From Rhodovarius sp. (GTDB lineage Bacteria > Pseudomonadota > Alphaproteobacteria > Acetobacterales > Acetobacteraceae), in the NCBI GenBank assembly GCA_025057055.1, contig JANWYF010000074.1:1-39026 (forward strand): 39,026 nucleotides of DNA, given 5' to 3'. Of the stretch, positions 3,116-11,516 are shown piece after piece. The position numbers were made by a program, and so were the translations under genes. Under the pieces are notes generated by a model. That model did no database searches and was not told where the DNA came from. It worked only from the letters and a program-made list of their open reading frames with translations. How positions within the stretch are numbered: position 1 is the stretch's first letter; each line of letters begins with the position of its first letter.

Positions 3116-4048
3116 GTGGACACCCTGGCGGTGCTGCTTCGCCAACCCGAGGAGCTCGAGCTGAGCCGCCTTCCGCTCGCCGAGCCGACGGAGGCCGATG
3201 TCGTGGTGGAAATCCGCTGGTCCGGCATCTCCACCGGCACCGAACGCCTGCTCTGGTCCGGCCGCATGCCGCCCTTTCCGGGCATGGGCTATCCCCTGGT
3301 GCCCGGCTATGAGTCGGTGGGCGTGGTCAGCGCAGCCGGCCCCGCTTCCGGCCGGCGCGTGGGGGAGCTCGTCTTCGTCCCCGGTGCGCGCTGCTTCGGC
3401 CCGGTTCGCGGCCTCTTCGGCGGGGCGGCGCGGCGCCTCGTGGTGCCGGGAGAGAGAGTGACACCCCTGCCCCCCGGTCTCGGGCGCGAGGGGGTGCTGC
3501 TCGCGCTCGCCGCCACCGCCCGCCACGCCCTGGCCGGCGGGCCGCTGCCCGAACTCATCGTCGGGCACGGCGTGCTCGGTCGGCTGCTCGCGCGGCTGAT
3601 CCTGGCCGAGGGCGGATCCTGCACGGTCTGGGAGAGCCATCCGGCGCGCATGGCGGGTGCCGATGGCTATCCGGTGCTGAAGCCAGAGGACGACCCGCGC
3701 CGCGACTATCGCGGCATCATCGATGCCTCGGGCGATGCGCAGCTGCTCGATGCCTTGATCGGCCGCCTCGCCCGCGGGGGAGAGATCGTTCTGGCGGGCT
3801 TCTACCACGAGCGACTCTCCTTCGCCTTCCCGCCCGCCTTCATGAAGGAGGCGCGGATCCGCATCGCCGCCGAGTGGAACGCCGAGGATATGGCCGCGCT
3901 GCAGGGGCTGCTTGCGCGCGGGGCGCTCTCTCTTGCCGGGCTGATCACGCATGAGGCGAACCCGACCGAGGTCGGCGACGCCTACCGCACCGCCTTCACC
4001 GACCCTGCCTGCCTCAAGATGGTCCTCGACTGGAGAGACGTCGCATGA
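3116..4048 (+). CDS. bchC: Bacteriochlorophyllide a (3-hydroxyethyl) dehydrogenase BchC
   Basis: This 310-residue enzyme oxidises the 3-hydroxyethyl group of the bacteriochlorin to the 3-acetyl group of bacteriochlorophyllide a. It belongs to the alcohol dehydrogenase-like (MDR) fold: [27 protein letters not shown] in the catalytic domain is typical of BchC, followed by the glycine-rich nucleotide segment [13 protein letters not shown]. The start is GTG at 3116, preceded by AAAGGA. No upstream in-frame ATG gives a family-like N-terminus. Its last codons overlap bchX (ATGA). It has its own putative promoter and PpsR site, as in Rhodobacter, so bchCXYZ-puf may be transcribed independently of crtEF. 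Confidence 0.95.
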
Positions 4049-5055
4049 CCGCACTGCCTGGGAAGCCTGCCGCCGCCGCCGCGATGACCAGCGCCTTGCG
4101 CGCGGAGGCAGCCGTCGAACCCGACCCGGTTCCGACCGGGCCGGTGCGGAAGAAGACGCAGATCATCGCGATCTACGGCAAGGGCGGGATCGGCAAATCC
4201 TTCACGCTTGCCAACCTCAGCTACATGATGGCCCAGCAGGGCCATCGCGTGCTGCTGATCGGCTGCGATCCGAAGAGCGACACCACCTCGCTCCTCTTCG
4301 GCGGTCGCTCCACCCCCACCATCATCGAGACCTCGAGCCGCAAGAAAGCCGCCGGCGAGGCGGTGGCGATCGGCGATGTCTGCTTCAAGCGCGATGGCGT
4401 CTTCGCGATGGAGCTTGGGGGGCCCGAAGTGGGCCGCGGCTGCGGCGGGCGCGGCATCATCCACGGCTTCGAGACGCTGGAGAAGCTCGGCTTCCACGAC
4501 TGGGACTTCGACTACGTCCTGCTCGACTTCCTGGGCGATGTGGTCTGCGGCGGCTTCGGCCTGCCGATCGCGCGCGACATGTGCCAGAAGGTGATCGTCG
4601 TCGCCTCCAACGACCTGCAGTCGCTCTATGTTGCGAACAACGTCTGCTCGGCGGTCGAGTATTTCCGCAAGCTCGGCGGCCATGTCGGCATCGCCGGCCT
4701 GGTGGTCAACAAGGACGACGGCAGCGGGGAGGCGCAGGCCTTCGCCGAGAAGGCGGGCATTCCGGTGCTCGCCTCGATCCCGGCGCATGAGGACATCCGC
4801 CGCAAGAGCGCGGCCTACGAGATCATCGGGCGCCCCGACGGCCCCTGGGGCCCGCTCTTTGCCGCCCTCGGCGAACGCGTGGCGCAGGCGCCGCCCCTGC
4901 GCCCGACCCCGCTCAGCCACGAAGAGCTGCTCTCCCTCTTCAAGGGAGAGGCGGTGGGGCGCGACGTCGTGCTCGAGCCGGCGAGACCGGAGGACATGTG
5001 CGCCTCCGGCCGGATCGAGAAGCCCTCGCTCGAGGTCATCTACGAGGGGGTGTGA
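4045..5055 (+). CDS. bchX: Chlorophyllide a reductase iron protein BchX
   Basis: This 336-residue, nitrogenase NifH-like ATPase passes electrons to BchYZ for C7=C8 reduction of chlorophyllide a, the step that makes a bacteriochlorin. The P-loop is GKGGIGKS (residues 45-52). The two cysteines that bridge the [4Fe-4S] cluster between subunits are in GRGCGGRG (C133) and DVVCGGFG (C168). The roughly 35-residue basic/acidic leader before [12 protein letters not shown] is usual for BchX and distinguishes it from BchL. It overlaps bchC by 4 bases and is followed after 3 bases by bchY. Confidence 0.97.
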
Positions 5056-5058
5056 GCG

Positions 5059-6558
5059 ATGGCGGTCGATCCTCCAGCCGATCGGGGCGGGGGCTGCCAC
5101 GGCGGGCAGGAGAAGCTGCGCGAGGCAGCGCGCGCTGCCGGCAATGCCGAACTGATGGAGCGCCTGGCCGCCGACTATCCGCGCGGACCGCACGACCAGC
5201 CGCAGAGCATGTGCCCGGCCTTCGGCAGCCTGCGCGTCGGCCTGCGCATGCGCCGGGTGGCCACCATCCTCTCGGGCAGCGCCTGTTGCGTCTATGGCCT
5301 GACCTTCACCAGCCATTTCTACGGCGCGCGCCGCACCGTGGGCTATGTGCCCTTCAACTCCGAGACCCTGGTCACCGGCAAGCTCTACGAGGACATCCGC
5401 GAGGCGGTGCACCGCATCGCCGATCCCAAGGACTTTGACGCGGTCGTGGTCACCAACCTCTGCGTGCCCACGGCATCCGGCGTGCCGCTGCACGCGCTGC
5501 CCAAGCAGATCAACGGTGTGCGCATCATCGGGATCGACGTGCCGGGCTTTGGCGTGCCCACCCATGCCGAGGCGAAGGATGTCCTGGCCGGTGCCATGCT
5601 CCGCTACGCCCGCATGGAGGCGGAGGCCGGCCCCGTCGCGCGCCCACGCCACCTGAGCGAGCAGGAACGCCGCGTGGCCCTGCTGGGCGAGCTCTTCCCC
5701 GGCGATCCGCCGGGGATTGCGGCGCTGATCGCCCCGCTCGGCCTCGGCCTTGCGCCGCAGACTCCCCCGCGCGAGTGGCGCGACCTCTACGGCGCGCTCG
5801 ACAGCGTCGTGGTGGCGGCGGTCCATCCCTTCTACACCGCCGCGGTGCGGGAGTTCCGCGCGGCTGGCCGGCCGGTGGTGGGCAGCGGCCCCGTCGGGGT
5901 GGAGGGCACCGCGGCCTGGCTCGAGGCGATCGCGGCGGCCGCCCATGTGCCGACCGCGCTGCTCGATGCGGCAAAGGCGAAGGCGCTGCCGGCGATCGCC
6001 GCTGCCCTTGCCGCCGCGCCCATCCGCGGGCGGATCACCGTGAGCGGCTATGAGGGCAGCGAGCTGCTCGTCGCTCGGCTGCTCATCGAGGCGGGGGCCG
6101 AGGTGCCCTATGTCGGCACCGCTTGCCCGCACACCGAATGGTCGGAGCCGGACCGCGCCTGGCTCGCTGCCCGCGGCTGCCACGTGCAGTACCGGGCGAG
6201 CCTCGAGCAGGACATCGCCGCGATGAAGGAGGCGAAGCCCGATCTTGCCGTCGGCACCACGCCGCTGGTGCAGAAGGCAAAGGAGATGGGGCTGCCCGCC
6301 CTCTACTTCACCAACATGATCAGTGCCCGGCCCCTCTTCGGCGTCGCCGGTGCGGCATCGCTCGCCGCGATCATCGCCAACCAGCTGCGCAACCGGGAGC
6401 GCTTCGACCGCATGGTCGCCTTCTTCGACGGCGTCGGCACGCCGGAACGCGCGGGCTATGGCTGGCGCGGGGTGCCGCCGGATCATCCCGGCTTTCGCGA
6501 GCGGATGCGCAAGCTGCGCGCGGCGCGGGCGAAGGCGGAGGAGGCGATCGGCACATGA
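5059..6558 (+). CDS. bchY: Chlorophyllide a reductase subunit Y
   Basis: This 499-residue NifD-like subunit of the chlorophyllide a reductase catalytic component binds a [4Fe-4S] cluster together with BchZ. Candidate ligand cysteines are in QSMCPAFGS (C52), SACCVYG (C77) and TNLCVPTAS (C135). The C-terminal part holds the substrate-side NifD-like domain ([25 protein letters not shown]). The start ATG at 5059 follows the GAGGGGG that ends bchX, so the genes are tightly coupled. Length is normal for BchY. The stop overlaps bchZ (ATGA). Confidence 0.96.
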
Positions 6559-7988
6559 CCCTGGTGCTCGATCACGACCGGGCCGGCGGCTACTGGGGGG
6601 CGGTCTACGTCTTCACCGCCGTGCGCGGCATGCGCGTCATCATCGACGGGCCGGTGGGCTGCGAAAACCTGCCCGTGACCTCGGTGCTGCACTACACCGA
6701 TGCTCTGCCGCCGCATGAGCTGCCCATCGTCGTCACCGGCATTGACGAGGACGCGATGAGCAAGGACGGGACCGAGGCGCTGCTCAAGCGCGCCGCCGGC
6801 ACGCAGGATCAGGACCTGCCCGCGGTGGTGGTCACCGGCTCCATCGCCGAGATGATCGGCGGCGGTGTCACGCCCGAAGGGTCGAACCTGCACCGCTTCA
6901 TCCCGCGCACCATCGATGAGGACCAGTGGCAGTGCGCGGACCGCGCCATGAACTGGCTGTGGGCGGAATACGGGGCCAAGCGCGGCAAGACCAAGCCGCG
7001 CACCCGCAAGGAAGGGGAGAAACCCCGCGTCAACATCATCGGGCCGATCTACGGCACCTTCAACATGCCATCCGACCTGGCCGAGCTGCGCCGCCTCATC
7101 GAGGGGATCGGCTGCGAGGTGAACATGGTCTTTCCGCTCGGCAGCCACCTCGAGGAGATCCCGAAGCTCGCCGAGGCCGACGTCAACATCTGCATGTATC
7201 GCGAGTTCGGCGCGCTGCTGTGCGAGAGCCTGGGGCGCCCCTGGCTGCGCGCGCCGATGGGCATCTTCGGAACGACCAACTTTCTGCGCAAGCTGGGCGA
7301 GCTGACGGGCTGCGATCCCGAACCCTTCATCGCCGCCGAGAAGCAGACCACGCTCAAACCGCTGTGGGATCTGTGGCGGTCGGTCACGCAGGATTTCTTC
7401 GGCAGCGCCAGCTTCGGCGTCCACGCCACCGAGACCTACACGCGCGGTATCCGACGCCTCTTCGAGGAGGAGCTCGGCATTCCCTGCGCCTTCGCCTTCG
7501 CCCGCCGCCCCGGTGTCAAGCCGGACAATGCGGCGGTGCGCGAGGCGATCCGCTCCTCCCCGCCGCTTGTTCTCTTCGGCTCCTACAACGAACGCATGTA
7601 TGCGGCCGAGGCGAAGGCGAAATGCGTCTACATCCCGGCGAGCTTCCCCGGCGCCTGCATCCGCCGCCACACCGGAACGCCCTTCATGGGCTATGCGGGG
7701 GCGACCTATCTCCTGCAGGAGTACTGCAACGCGCTGTTTGATGCGCTGTTTCACATCCTGCCGCTGAGCACCGAGATGGACGCGATCGCCGCCACCCCGG
7801 TGCCGCTGCCCTTCCGCTGGGAGCAGGAGGCGGTCGCGCTGCTCGAGGCCCGCCTCGAGAGCGAGCCCTTCCTGCTGCGCATCTCGGCTGCCAAGCGCCT
7901 GCGCGAGCGCATCGAGGCCGCCGCGCGCGATGCCGGCGAATCCTCGATCAGCCGCGAGCGTGCGGCGCAGGTTCTGGAGCGCGCGTGA
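6555..7988 (+). CDS. bchZ: Chlorophyllide a reductase subunit Z
   Basis: This 477-residue NifK-like partner of BchY completes the dark-operative chlorophyllide a reductase. [13 protein letters not shown] holds the cluster cysteine (about residue 36), and [15 protein letters not shown] and [16 protein letters not shown] are characteristic internal blocks. The ORF track extends upstream to 6123 only by reading through bchY. The ATG at 6555 overlapping the bchY stop gives the family N-terminus [21 protein letters not shown] gap of 103 bp separates it from pufB. In many purple bacteria the puf promoter lies within or just after this gene. Confidence 0.96.
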
Positions 7989-8091: not shown

Positions 8092-8259
8092 ATGTCCAAT
8101 GGTATCACCGAGGCCGAGGCCCGCGAGATCCACCGCCTGGTCATGCAGGGATGGATCTTCTCGGTCTTCGCCTCGATGGGCGCGCACATCCTTGTCTGGC
8201 TGTGGCGTCCGCTCGTCTACGGGCAGCCCGCTCCGCCCGACTGGCGCTTCTTCCAGTAG
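8092..8259 (+). CDS. pufB: LH1 antenna beta polypeptide PufB
   Basis: This is a 55-residue membrane antenna protein of the core light-harvesting ring. The N-terminal cytoplasmic part carries the conserved His-14 (EIHRLV, position -18). The single transmembrane helix runs from about W21 to W38, with the bacteriochlorophyll ligand His-32 (GAHILVWLWRP). GGAGG at 8080-8084 precedes ATG 8092 by 7 bases. Two features are odd. Position +9 after the ligand is Leu-41, where LH1 beta chains normally have Trp (RPW). The periplasmic tail after RP is also longer than usual and ends PPDWRFFQ. The ORF track only shows it inside the 7930-8259 frame. Confidence 0.95.
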   Translation: MSNGITEAEAREIHRLVMQGWIFSVFASMGAHILVWLWRPLVYGQPAPPDWRFFQ

Positions 8260-8283
8260 GCGGGAGCAGGAGGAGTTCTCGAC

Positions 8284-8466
8284 ATGCACAAGATCTGGAT
8301 GGTGACGAATCCGCTTCGCCTCGGCCTCTCGGCCGCGGTGGCGGTGATGACCGTGGCCCTGGTGATCCATTTCGCGGTGCTCAGCTCGCCCCGCTATTGC
8401 GACCACCTCGGCTGGTGCTCGGCGGCGCCCTCCGCCAACGCCCAGCTGCCGGCGCCGCGGAACTGA
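8284..8466 (+). CDS. pufA: LH1 antenna alpha polypeptide PufA
   Basis: This is a 60-residue core antenna alpha chain. The N-terminus MHKIWMVTNPLR matches the 'M.kiW...dPrr' pattern. The transmembrane helix (about L13-S34) holds the bacteriochlorophyll ligand His-29 in ALVIHFAVLSS. A purine-rich GGAGCAGGAGGA precedes the ATG. The C-terminus is unusual. After RY (positions +8/+9) the sequence is CDHLGWC, so the usual Trp at +11 (as in RFNW or RYNW) is replaced by Asp-40 and the nearest Trp is at +15. Two cysteines (C39, C45) and a Pro/Ala-rich tail extend the protein beyond the common length of roughly 50 residues. Confidence 0.93.
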   Translation: MHKIWMVTNPLRLGLSAAVAVMTVALVIHFAVLSSPRYCDHLGWCSAAPSANAQLPAPRN

Positions 8467-8598: not shown

Positions 8599-9429
8599 AT
8601 GGCTGTGCTGACTTTCGAGAAGAAATACCGGGTCCGCGGGGGTACCCTCTTCGGCGGCGACCTGTTCGATTTCTGGGTGGGGCCCTTCTATGTGGGCTTC
8701 TTCGGCGTCACCACCCTGTTCTTCAGCGTGGTCGGCACCGCGCTCATCATCATCGCCGCCGCCCAGGGGGACACCTTCAACATCTGGCGCATCAACATCG
8801 CGCCTCCGGACCTCTCCTATGGCCTTGCCCTCGCCCCAATGCGGGAGGGGGGCTACTGGCAGGTGATCACGATCTGCGCGCTCGGTGCCTTCATCTCCTG
8901 GGCGCTGCGGCAGATGGAGATCGCGCGCAAGCTCGGCATGGGGTTGCACATCCCCTTCGCCTATCTGACCGCGGTCTTCGCCTTCTTCACGCTGAACGTG
9001 ATCCGCCCGGTGCTGATGGGCGCCTGGGGACATGGCTTCCCCTACGGCATCTTCAGCCACCTCGATTGGGTGAGCAACGTCGGCTACCAGTACCTGCACT
9101 TCCACTACAACCCGGCGCACATGATCGCGGTGAGCCTGTTCTTCGCCACCACGTTCGCGCTCTCGCTCCATGCATCGCTGGTGCTCTCGGCGATCAATCC
9201 CAAGAAAGGGCTGCCGGTCGCCACGGCGGAGGCCGAGAACACCTTCTACCGGGATTTGATCGGCTACTCGATCGGTACACTGGGCATCCACCGGCTGGGG
9301 CTGTTCCTCGCCCTCTCGGCCGGCATCTGGTCCGCCATCTGCATCGTCATCTCCGGGCCGTTCTGGACCCGCGGCTGGCCCGAATGGTGGAACTGGTGGC
9401 TCCAGATCCCGATCTGGCGCGGCCTGTGA
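8599..9429 (+). CDS. pufL: Photosynthetic reaction centre L subunit
   Basis: This 276-residue, five-helix membrane protein binds half of the reaction-centre cofactors. Counting the initiator Met, the ligands are His-154 (accessory BChl, HLDW), His-174 (special pair, YNPAH), His-191 and His-231 (non-haem iron, with quinones nearby). His-169 (L168) is kept for special-pair hydrogen bonding. Near the QB site are Glu-213 (L212), Asn-214 (L213) and Ser-224 (L223). L213 is Asn as in Rps. viridis, not Asp as in Rba. sphaeroides. The gene starts 132 bp after pufA, behind the intercistronic hairpin, with an AGGGGG-rich leader. Confidence 0.98.
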
Positions 9430-9447: not shown

Positions 9448-10422
9448 ATGGCACTGGAATACCAATACCTCTTCACCCGCGTGCAGGTCCGCGGGCCGCA
9501 CTACAAGGGTCTGCCGCTGCCGCCCGGCCATGACGTGCGCAGCAAGGGCGGGCGGTTCTCGCACCTGCTGGGCAAGCTCGGCGATGCGCAGATCGGGCCG
9601 ATCTACCTCGGCCATCTCGGGGTGCTGTCGCTGTTCTTCGGCTTCATCGCCTTCGAGATCATCGGGCTGAACATGCTGGCCTCGGTGAACTGGAACCCGC
9701 TGCTGTTCGTGCGCGACCTGTTCTGGCTCTCGCTCGATCCGCCGCTGCCCCAGCACGGCCTCAAGGTCTTCATGCCGCTGCACGAGGGCGGCTGGTGGCT
9801 GCTCGCCGGCTTCTTCCTGACGCTCTCGCTCTTCCTGTGGTGGGGGCGGACCTACCGCCGGGCGCGCGCGCTCGGCCTCGGCACGCACACCAGCTGGGCC
9901 TTCCTCGCGGCGATCTGGCTCTATCTGGTGCTGGGCTTCATCCGCCCGATCCTGATGGGCAGCTGGAGCGAGGCGGTGCCCTTCGGCATCTTCTCCCACC
10001 TCGACTGGACCGCGGCGTTCTCGATCCGCTACGGCAACCTCTTCTACAACCCCTTCCACGCGCTCTCGATCGTCTTCCTCTACGGCTCGGTGCTGCTGTT
10101 CGCGATGCACGGGGCCACCATCCTGGCGGTCGGCCGCTTCGGGGGAGAGCGCGAGGTCGAGCAGGCCTATGACCGCGGCACCGCCATGGAGCGGGCCGGC
10201 CTGTTCTGGCGCTGGACCATGGGCTTCAACGCCACGAGCGAGAGCATCCACCGCTGGGCCTGGTGGTTTGCGGTGCTGACGCCGGTCACCGGCGGCATCG
10301 GCATCCTGGTCACCGGCACGCTGGTGGACAACTGGTACCTCTGGGCGATGGAACGCGGCTTCGTCGCCGCCTACCCGCCGATTGCCACCCCTGACCCCTA
10401 CCTGACGGGAGCCGGCCGATGA
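9448..10422 (+). CDS. pufM: Photosynthetic reaction centre M subunit
   Basis: This 324-residue, five-helix partner of PufL has an offset of +2 from Rba. sphaeroides numbering. His-184 (M182), His-204 (M202, special pair, NPFH), His-221 (M219), Glu-236 (M234) and His-268 (M266) supply the chlorophyll and iron ligands. Tyr-212 (M210) and Trp-254 (M252, QA pocket) are present. Asp-46 occupies M44, which is Asn in Rba. sphaeroides, and matches the L213 Asn in PufL. GGAGAGGAGGAGGG precedes the start. The stop overlaps pufC (ATGA). Confidence 0.98.
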
Positions 10423-11516
10423 GGGACAACACGACCAACAACACGCTGCTCGCGCTCGGCGGCGTGGGCGCCCTGATCGGCATCGGGTTGCTCTTCACCT
10501 TCGAGCGACCGCCGATCGAGACGGTGCAGGGCGGCTTCCGCGGCACCTCCATGGGGCAGGTCTACAACCCGCGGACCGTCAACCGCCTGGCGGCGGTCAA
10601 CCAGGTGCCGCCGGCGCCCGAACCGGCAGACCCGGGCGGCGAACGGGCGCGGGACGTGTTCCAGAACGTGCAGGTGCTGGGGCACCTCTCGGTCGAGCAG
10701 TTCAACCGCATCATGCAGGTGATGACCGAGTGGATCTACCCGCGCGAGAACATCGCCGACGGCTGCAACGGCTGCCACGTGCCGGGCAACTTCGCGGCCG
10801 AGGACATCTACACCAAGCATGTCGCGCGCCGCATGCTGCAGATGACCATGGCCCTCAACAGCACCTGGCAGGTGCATACGCAGGAGGTGGGGGTGACCTG
10901 CTGGACCTGCCATCGCGGACAGGCCGTGCCGGCCTATGTCTGGTCGCAGCAGCCTGTCAGCAGCAACGGCGGCGGCTTCGCCACCGGTCCGGGCGAACAG
11001 AACCGCCCCGGCCGCCAAGTGGGTCTCGCCTCCCTGCCCAATGATCCCTTCACCCCCTATCTGTGGCGGGCCGAGGAGATCCGCATGCAGGGCCGCGACC
11101 AGCATCCGCGGCCCAACAGCCGGCAGTCCATCCAGCAGACGGAATGGAACTACGCGCTGATGATGCACATGTCGACGGCGCTCGGCGTCAACTGCACCTT
11201 CTGCCACAACAGCCGCGCCTTCTCGAGCTGGGAGGAGAGCCCGCCCCAGCGCCTGACCGCCTGGCATGGCATCCGCATGGTGCGCGACATCAACAACACC
11301 TACATCGAGCCGCTGCGCGAGCGCTTCCCGCCGCATCGGCTGGGGCCGCTTGGCGATACGCTCAAGGTCAACTGCGCGACCTGCCATCAGGGCGTCTATC
11401 AGCCCATGTTCGGCGCGCCGATGATCCGCGATTATCCGGAGCTGCTGCCCCCGCCTGAACAGCGGCGAGCGGAGGCGCCGGCTCCCGGCTGGGTGGCCGG
11501 GCCGCGCCTGCCATAG
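10419..11516 (+). CDS. pufC: Reaction centre tetraheme cytochrome c subunit PufC
   Basis: This 365-residue periplasmic subunit re-reduces the special pair. It has four CxxCH haem c sites: CNGCH, CWTCH, CTFCH and CATCH. An N-terminal hydrophobic segment (about residues 10-28, [19 protein letters not shown]) has no lipobox cysteine. The first Cys in the protein is in haem site 1, so it is probably held by an uncleaved helix rather than a lipid as in Blastochloris viridis. It overlaps pufM by 4 bases and ends the operon, with a terminator 20 bp beyond. There is no pufX. Confidence 0.97.

Follow-up and report, generated by a model that had tools for sequence, protein, structure and literature searches.

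Two tryptophan hydrogen bonds to the C3-acetyl groups of bacteriochlorophyll (BChl) are textbook determinants of LH1 colour, which raises the question of what kind of antenna is built, and at what wavelength it absorbs, when a puf operon encodes neither tryptophan. Such an operon lies in the window, the 39,026-nucleotide stretch of Rhodovarius sp. DNA analysed here, where bchC-bchX-bchY-bchZ-pufB-pufA-pufL-pufM-pufC follow one another on the + strand. Its light-harvesting genes are pufB (positions 8092–8259, between bchZ and pufA), encoding a 55-residue LH1 beta chain (MSNGITEAEAREIHRLVMQGWIFSVFASMGAHILVWLWRPLVYGQPAPPDWRFFQ), and pufA (8284–8466), encoding a 60-residue LH1 alpha chain (MHKIWMVTNPLRLGLSAAVAVMTVALVIHFAVLSSPRYCDHLGWCSAAPSANAQLPAPRN). 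The ligand histidines, taken as position 0 throughout, are beta His32 (8185–8187, placed by alignment to LH1 beta chains and by the HxxxxxWRP register) and alpha His29 (8368–8370), in the contexts ...GAH32ILVWLWRPL41VY... and ...IH29FAVLSSPRYCD40HLGWC..., respectively. Residue and codon positions bear out the initial annotation, which had reported Leu at beta+9 (Leu41, 8212–8214) and Asp at alpha+11 (Asp40, 8401–8403) where Trp is normally found. Nor has a small insertion displaced the missing residues, since the beta WRP motif and the alpha SSPRY segment (aligned with STPSY/STDRF) are both in register with standard LH1, excluding an indel that masks a Trp; the closest Trp 3' of these sites is at alpha+15 and, in beta, some 20 residues past the ligand His.

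By position and overall features the pair belongs to LH1. It lies directly 5' of the reaction-centre genes pufL (8599–9429; TIGR01157, 410 bits) and pufM (9448–10422; TIGR01115, 506 bits), followed by the reaction-centre cytochrome gene pufC (10419–11516; NF040706, 445 bits), and both chains, carrying the ligand His and in beta the WRP motif, best match, in register, the LH1 chains of solved RC-LH1 complexes, although the variant motif itself is absent from the displayed alignments to those chains. Trp at beta+9 and alpha+11, the feature that is lacking, is usual in LH1 and not definitional. PufA exceeds both family cut-offs (Pfam LHC, E=1.6e-7; NCBIfam pufA, 41.3 bits against 35), and PufB falls slightly under both (Pfam LHC, E=2e-4 and 22 bits, just below the 23-bit cut-off; NCBIfam pufB, 43.4 bits against 61). 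These low beta scores are what could be cited for a peripheral LH2-type antenna, or for a decaying or mis-sequenced pufBA, a reading that is already contradicted and exceedingly improbable in view of the order bchZ-pufBA-pufLMC, the best matches, and the conservation with synonymous variation of 43 distinct pairs described below. It is also at odds with pufBA being the sole LHC pair: no second pair, and thus no normal LH1, was found elsewhere in this 3.07 Mb, 97.5% complete genome, which offers no separate puc genes with the alpha+13/+14 residues characteristic of LH2/LH3. True puc-type pairs do occur in some genus-mates, and look different from the window PufBA.

A changed pigment could in principle dispense with both tryptophans at once, because 3-vinyl BChl has no acetyl group and hence needs no donor. 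Direct support for this was not found, and its likelihood is negligible. BchC carries out the last reaction that forms the C3-acetyl of BChl a, and its gene is in the operon (3116–4048; TIGR01202, 426.5 bits, cut-off 291), followed by bchX, bchY and bchZ for chlorophyllide a reductase (4045–7988; TIGR02016, TIGR02015 and TIGR02014, each above cut-off). BchF, too, is encoded in the genome and scores above its family cut-off, so that loss of the acetyl group through a missing BchF or BchC is excluded and ordinary BChl a with its C3-acetyl should be made.

The same double replacement recurs well beyond this genome, in genus-mates and in cultured relatives. When 398 sampled Acetobacteraceae genomes were searched with a profile built on the variant alpha chain, 39 genomes of 8 genera matched at E<1e-31, and nothing lay between these and the ordinary chains, which begin at 1e-10. 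Carriers, recognized by the signature beta RP[L/M]VY plus alpha SPRYCDHxG[W/F]C, include Roseococcus thiosulfatophilus RB-3, in whose genome the variant pair represents the only LHC genes, Rubritepida flocculans DSM 14296, Dankookia rubra, Paeniroseomonas aquatica and several Falsiroseomonas. Samples of 385 alphaproteobacterial and 399 proteobacterial genomes yielded no further variants outside Acetobacteraceae, and no plasmid copies were found. Among 141 distinct beta/alpha pairs taken from fetched family and class loci, 96 are Trp/Trp, 43 have Asp at alpha+11 together with a beta+9 residue that is Leu or Met, and two are of LH2 type; mixed LH1 pairs, in which one Trp is kept and the other lost, number zero. 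Counted by chain, Trp occupies the two positions in all 95 distinct standard beta chains and all 96 distinct standard alpha chains, and the variant has Leu (35) or Met (3) in its 38 distinct beta chains and Asp in 43 of 43 alpha chains. With 43 distinct variant pairs and no mixed pair, the change is attributable neither to chance nor to error, and codons varying silently around fixed residues further exclude a sequencing error or pseudogene, as the initial annotation had argued from the clean reading frames. Its double change is thus real, while its description as one natural LH1 pair was too narrow for what is a family-level lineage.

Several observations made on other antenna chains in these samples deserve mention. 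Phe occurs naturally at alpha+11 (RYNF, RFNF) in two further alphaproteobacterial LH1 operons, in which beta keeps its Trp (L205, alpha near 1618 on the - strand; L206, alpha near 1489, also on the - strand); these are the equivalents in nature of the alpha W+11F mutant made in the laboratory, and a blue shift is expected for them. Rhodobacterales-like LH1 alpha chains (L195, L197, L198, L202) have one residue fewer and their Trp at His+10, so that counting from the His alone would wrongly score them as Trp-less. In Dankookia rubra (L027/L088), the first conserved His of the beta chain, located 18 residues ahead of the ligand His, is replaced by Asn, which some standard chains of the family also have there.

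Both tryptophans were replaced together, and once, in a single puf-operon lineage. In a 124-row tree of PufL, a protein that does not itself contain the trait, the variant forms a single clade requiring one change (SH-aLRT 92). Three genera contain both antenna types, and their PufL sequences sort by type, which suggests horizontal movement of the puf operon; AU tests of genus monophyly lend this weak support, with weak rejection for g25 (p 0.036) and none for g37 (0.37) or g102 (0.089). Within the variant lineage the residue never changes at alpha positions +6 to +12, +14 and +16 or at beta positions +10 and +11, while silent differences are seen in most of the corresponding codons, indicating that the motif is under purifying selection. 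A coupled fixed change in the reaction centre was considered and rejected: PufL and PufM (the latter partly covered) each offer one weakly separating column, and with almost no fixed difference there the switch appears confined to the antenna chains.

Comparison with published spectra and mutants indicates what this switch would do to the absorption of the ring. LH1 of Roseococcus thiosulfatophilus peaks at 856 nm (PMC12654162), matching the blue-shifted core antenna that the initial annotation had predicted, and with no LHC pair but the variant in the genome of RB-3, this band should belong to it. The mutants of Rba. sphaeroides are altered at the same two positions, and there loss of alpha Trp+11 places LH1 at 853 nm, not far from the natural carrier, and loss of beta Trp+9 shifts it by ~5 nm (PMC10214105); at 4.5 K the values are 884.0 nm for wild type, 861.2 nm for the alpha mutant and 880.3 nm for the beta mutant (PMC11440610). 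Rhodopila globiformis of the same family, whose alpha chain (7xxf_A) has Trp+11, absorbs at 879 nm (PMC9640540), and LH1 maxima of 872 and 874 nm are given for Craurococcus roseus and Acidisphaera rubrifaciens, respectively (PMC12654162). Short-wavelength maxima are also listed for Paracraurococcus ruber (856 nm) and Roseomonas sp. CK155 (854 nm) (PMC12654162), known here by spectrum alone. Other LH1s, such as that of Elioraea tepida (865 nm, likewise compared by spectrum), also lie fairly blue, a point against the reading below. The 2025 review that reports the 854–856 nm peaks, that of Roseococcus thiosulfatophilus included, calls them atypical, gives the spectra without a sequence explanation and notes that comparison of alpha and beta sequences could help explain the shifts (PMC12654162). 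No published sequence explanation for 854–856 nm LH1 was found in the open-access literature (subscription journals lay mostly outside the search), nor any structure or Raman data on the variant lineage.

Taken together, the locus very probably encodes a functional LH1 that lost both Trp donors in one change to Asp and Leu/Met and has its Qy band at ~855 nm, a natural double Trp loss being the simplest reading of a blue-shifted core antenna. Equivalent hydrogen bonds to the C3-acetyl groups would then be absent; without the alpha Trp bond BChl site energies would rise and exciton coupling would fall, moving Qy from about 875–880 nm to ~855 nm. If the double loss is the cause of the blue shift, the window organism should absorb near 854–858 nm, and a single core antenna band there with no LH2 band is predicted. 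Such a loss would account directly, in molecular terms, for the 856 nm LH1 of Roseococcus, a known spectral oddity, and probably for the other 854–856 nm cases too. Sequence and spectrum are matched by name in one strain, RB-3, and given the single origin of the variant their association amounts to one evolutionary event, not replicable across lineages here.

Other donors might still serve the acetyl groups. In this alternative, which is possible but somewhat doubtful, one or both C3-acetyls are hydrogen-bonded by alpha Tyr+9, His+12 or Trp+15, or by beta Tyr+11, and the shift arises from bond geometry or weaker coupling. Alpha Tyr+9, alpha His+12 and beta Tyr+11 are indeed fixed throughout the variant lineage but not across standard LH1, and LH2 donors to the acetyl groups sit at alpha+13/+14; in the Thiorhodovibrio 970 LH1 an alpha Trp-His-Ca network is found at the acetyl group (PMC10214105). 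However, 856 nm is near the maximum of the alpha-Trp-less mutant and unlike that of a fully bonded LH1. As for the alternative donors named in the initial annotation, alpha Trp+15 is unlikely to be an obligate or general one, being Phe in two relatives, whereas alpha Tyr+9 stays a candidate. A different proposal would assign only a minor role to the Trp losses and ascribe the 856 nm band mainly to other changes in the chains, such as the small residues Ala-5/Ser-4/Gly-2 by the beta His, or to ring size and BChl spacing. Many further alpha and beta positions did change along with the Trp losses, the ASMGAH face and several alpha positions being fixed differently between the antenna types, and modelling attributes much of the shift to exciton coupling (PMC11440610). 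Yet in Rba. sphaeroides mutation of the alpha Trp by itself moves the band by as much as is observed here, and nothing comparable is fixed in the reaction-centre subunits (PufM partly covered), making this proposal rather improbable.

If both Trp bonds are absent, as the preferred reading has it, the persistence of the ring calls for an explanation. The engineered Rba. sphaeroides double Trp mutant was too unstable to form a complex, or yielded one with a compromised structure that was unstable in detergent (PMC10214105, PMC11440610). Set against this, a double loss that persists in nature, in at least 39 genomes and together with extra fixed changes, is all the more striking. The instability of the mutant was missed in the initial annotation, as were the invariant alpha Cys pair and the remodelled beta chain. 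Set beside the standard LH1 chains found in purple bacteria, other Acetobacteraceae included (e.g., Rhodopila globiformis, 7xxf), the variant retains operon place, chain length, ligand His, WRP and alpha/beta architecture, but apart from the two replacements a loop, the beta tail and a helix face are new. The loop, on the periplasmic side of alpha, reads Y-C-D-H-x-G-[W/F]-C and in the window includes the motif C39-D-H-L-G-W-C45 (His+10 to +16, 8398–8418), with two Cys flanking Asp-His; among 43 distinct chains Cys+10, Asp+11, His+12, Gly+14 and Cys+16 are invariant, and position +15 is Trp in 41 and Phe in 2. Beta has Tyr+11 (Tyr43, 8218–8220; 38 of 38 distinct variant chains, mostly Pro in standard ones), a tail ending PPDWR(F/M)F and the helix face ASMGAH. 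The CDHxG[W/F]C loop, the beta VY...PPDWR tail and the ASMGAH face are absent from the standard chains sampled.

It is probably these lineage-fixed residues, the alpha Cys+10/Cys+16 loop, beta Tyr+11 with its tail and the ASMGAH face, that would keep the ring stable. A Cys+10/Cys+16 disulfide, or an alpha-beta contact via the loop, could fill in mechanically for the two Trp bonds. More specifically, and tentatively, one may envisage a natural LH1 ring with no hydrogen bond to either C3-acetyl, in which an alpha loop closed by a putative Cys+10-Cys+16 disulfide packs on the beta C-terminal tail; if true, this would amount to another structural way of building a core antenna. In any case the variant, a widespread natural core antenna that is strictly conserved without either colour-determining tryptophan, names candidate residues for how a Trp-less ring holds together, and cultured carriers exist.

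A natural blue shift through removal of C3-acetyl donors has a parallel in LH3 (B800-820), tuned relative to LH2 at alpha+13/+14, although LH3 is a peripheral antenna and the variant, judged by its sequence, a core antenna around the reaction centre. Two near-complete genomes of the same genus as the window organism (G001, G003) are without LHC genes, implying that phototrophy was lost or is absent in part of the genus, and a further relative (G365, locus L151) has a puc-type pair with the ordinary Tyr-Trp. Four genus-mates (G004, G006, G007 and G008; loci L004–L007) encode a puc-type alpha chain with Phe-Leu at His+13/+14 (FPAFL, FAAFL), the residues of blue-shifted LH3, so that in this genus the core antenna and a peripheral partner may both be blue-shifted.
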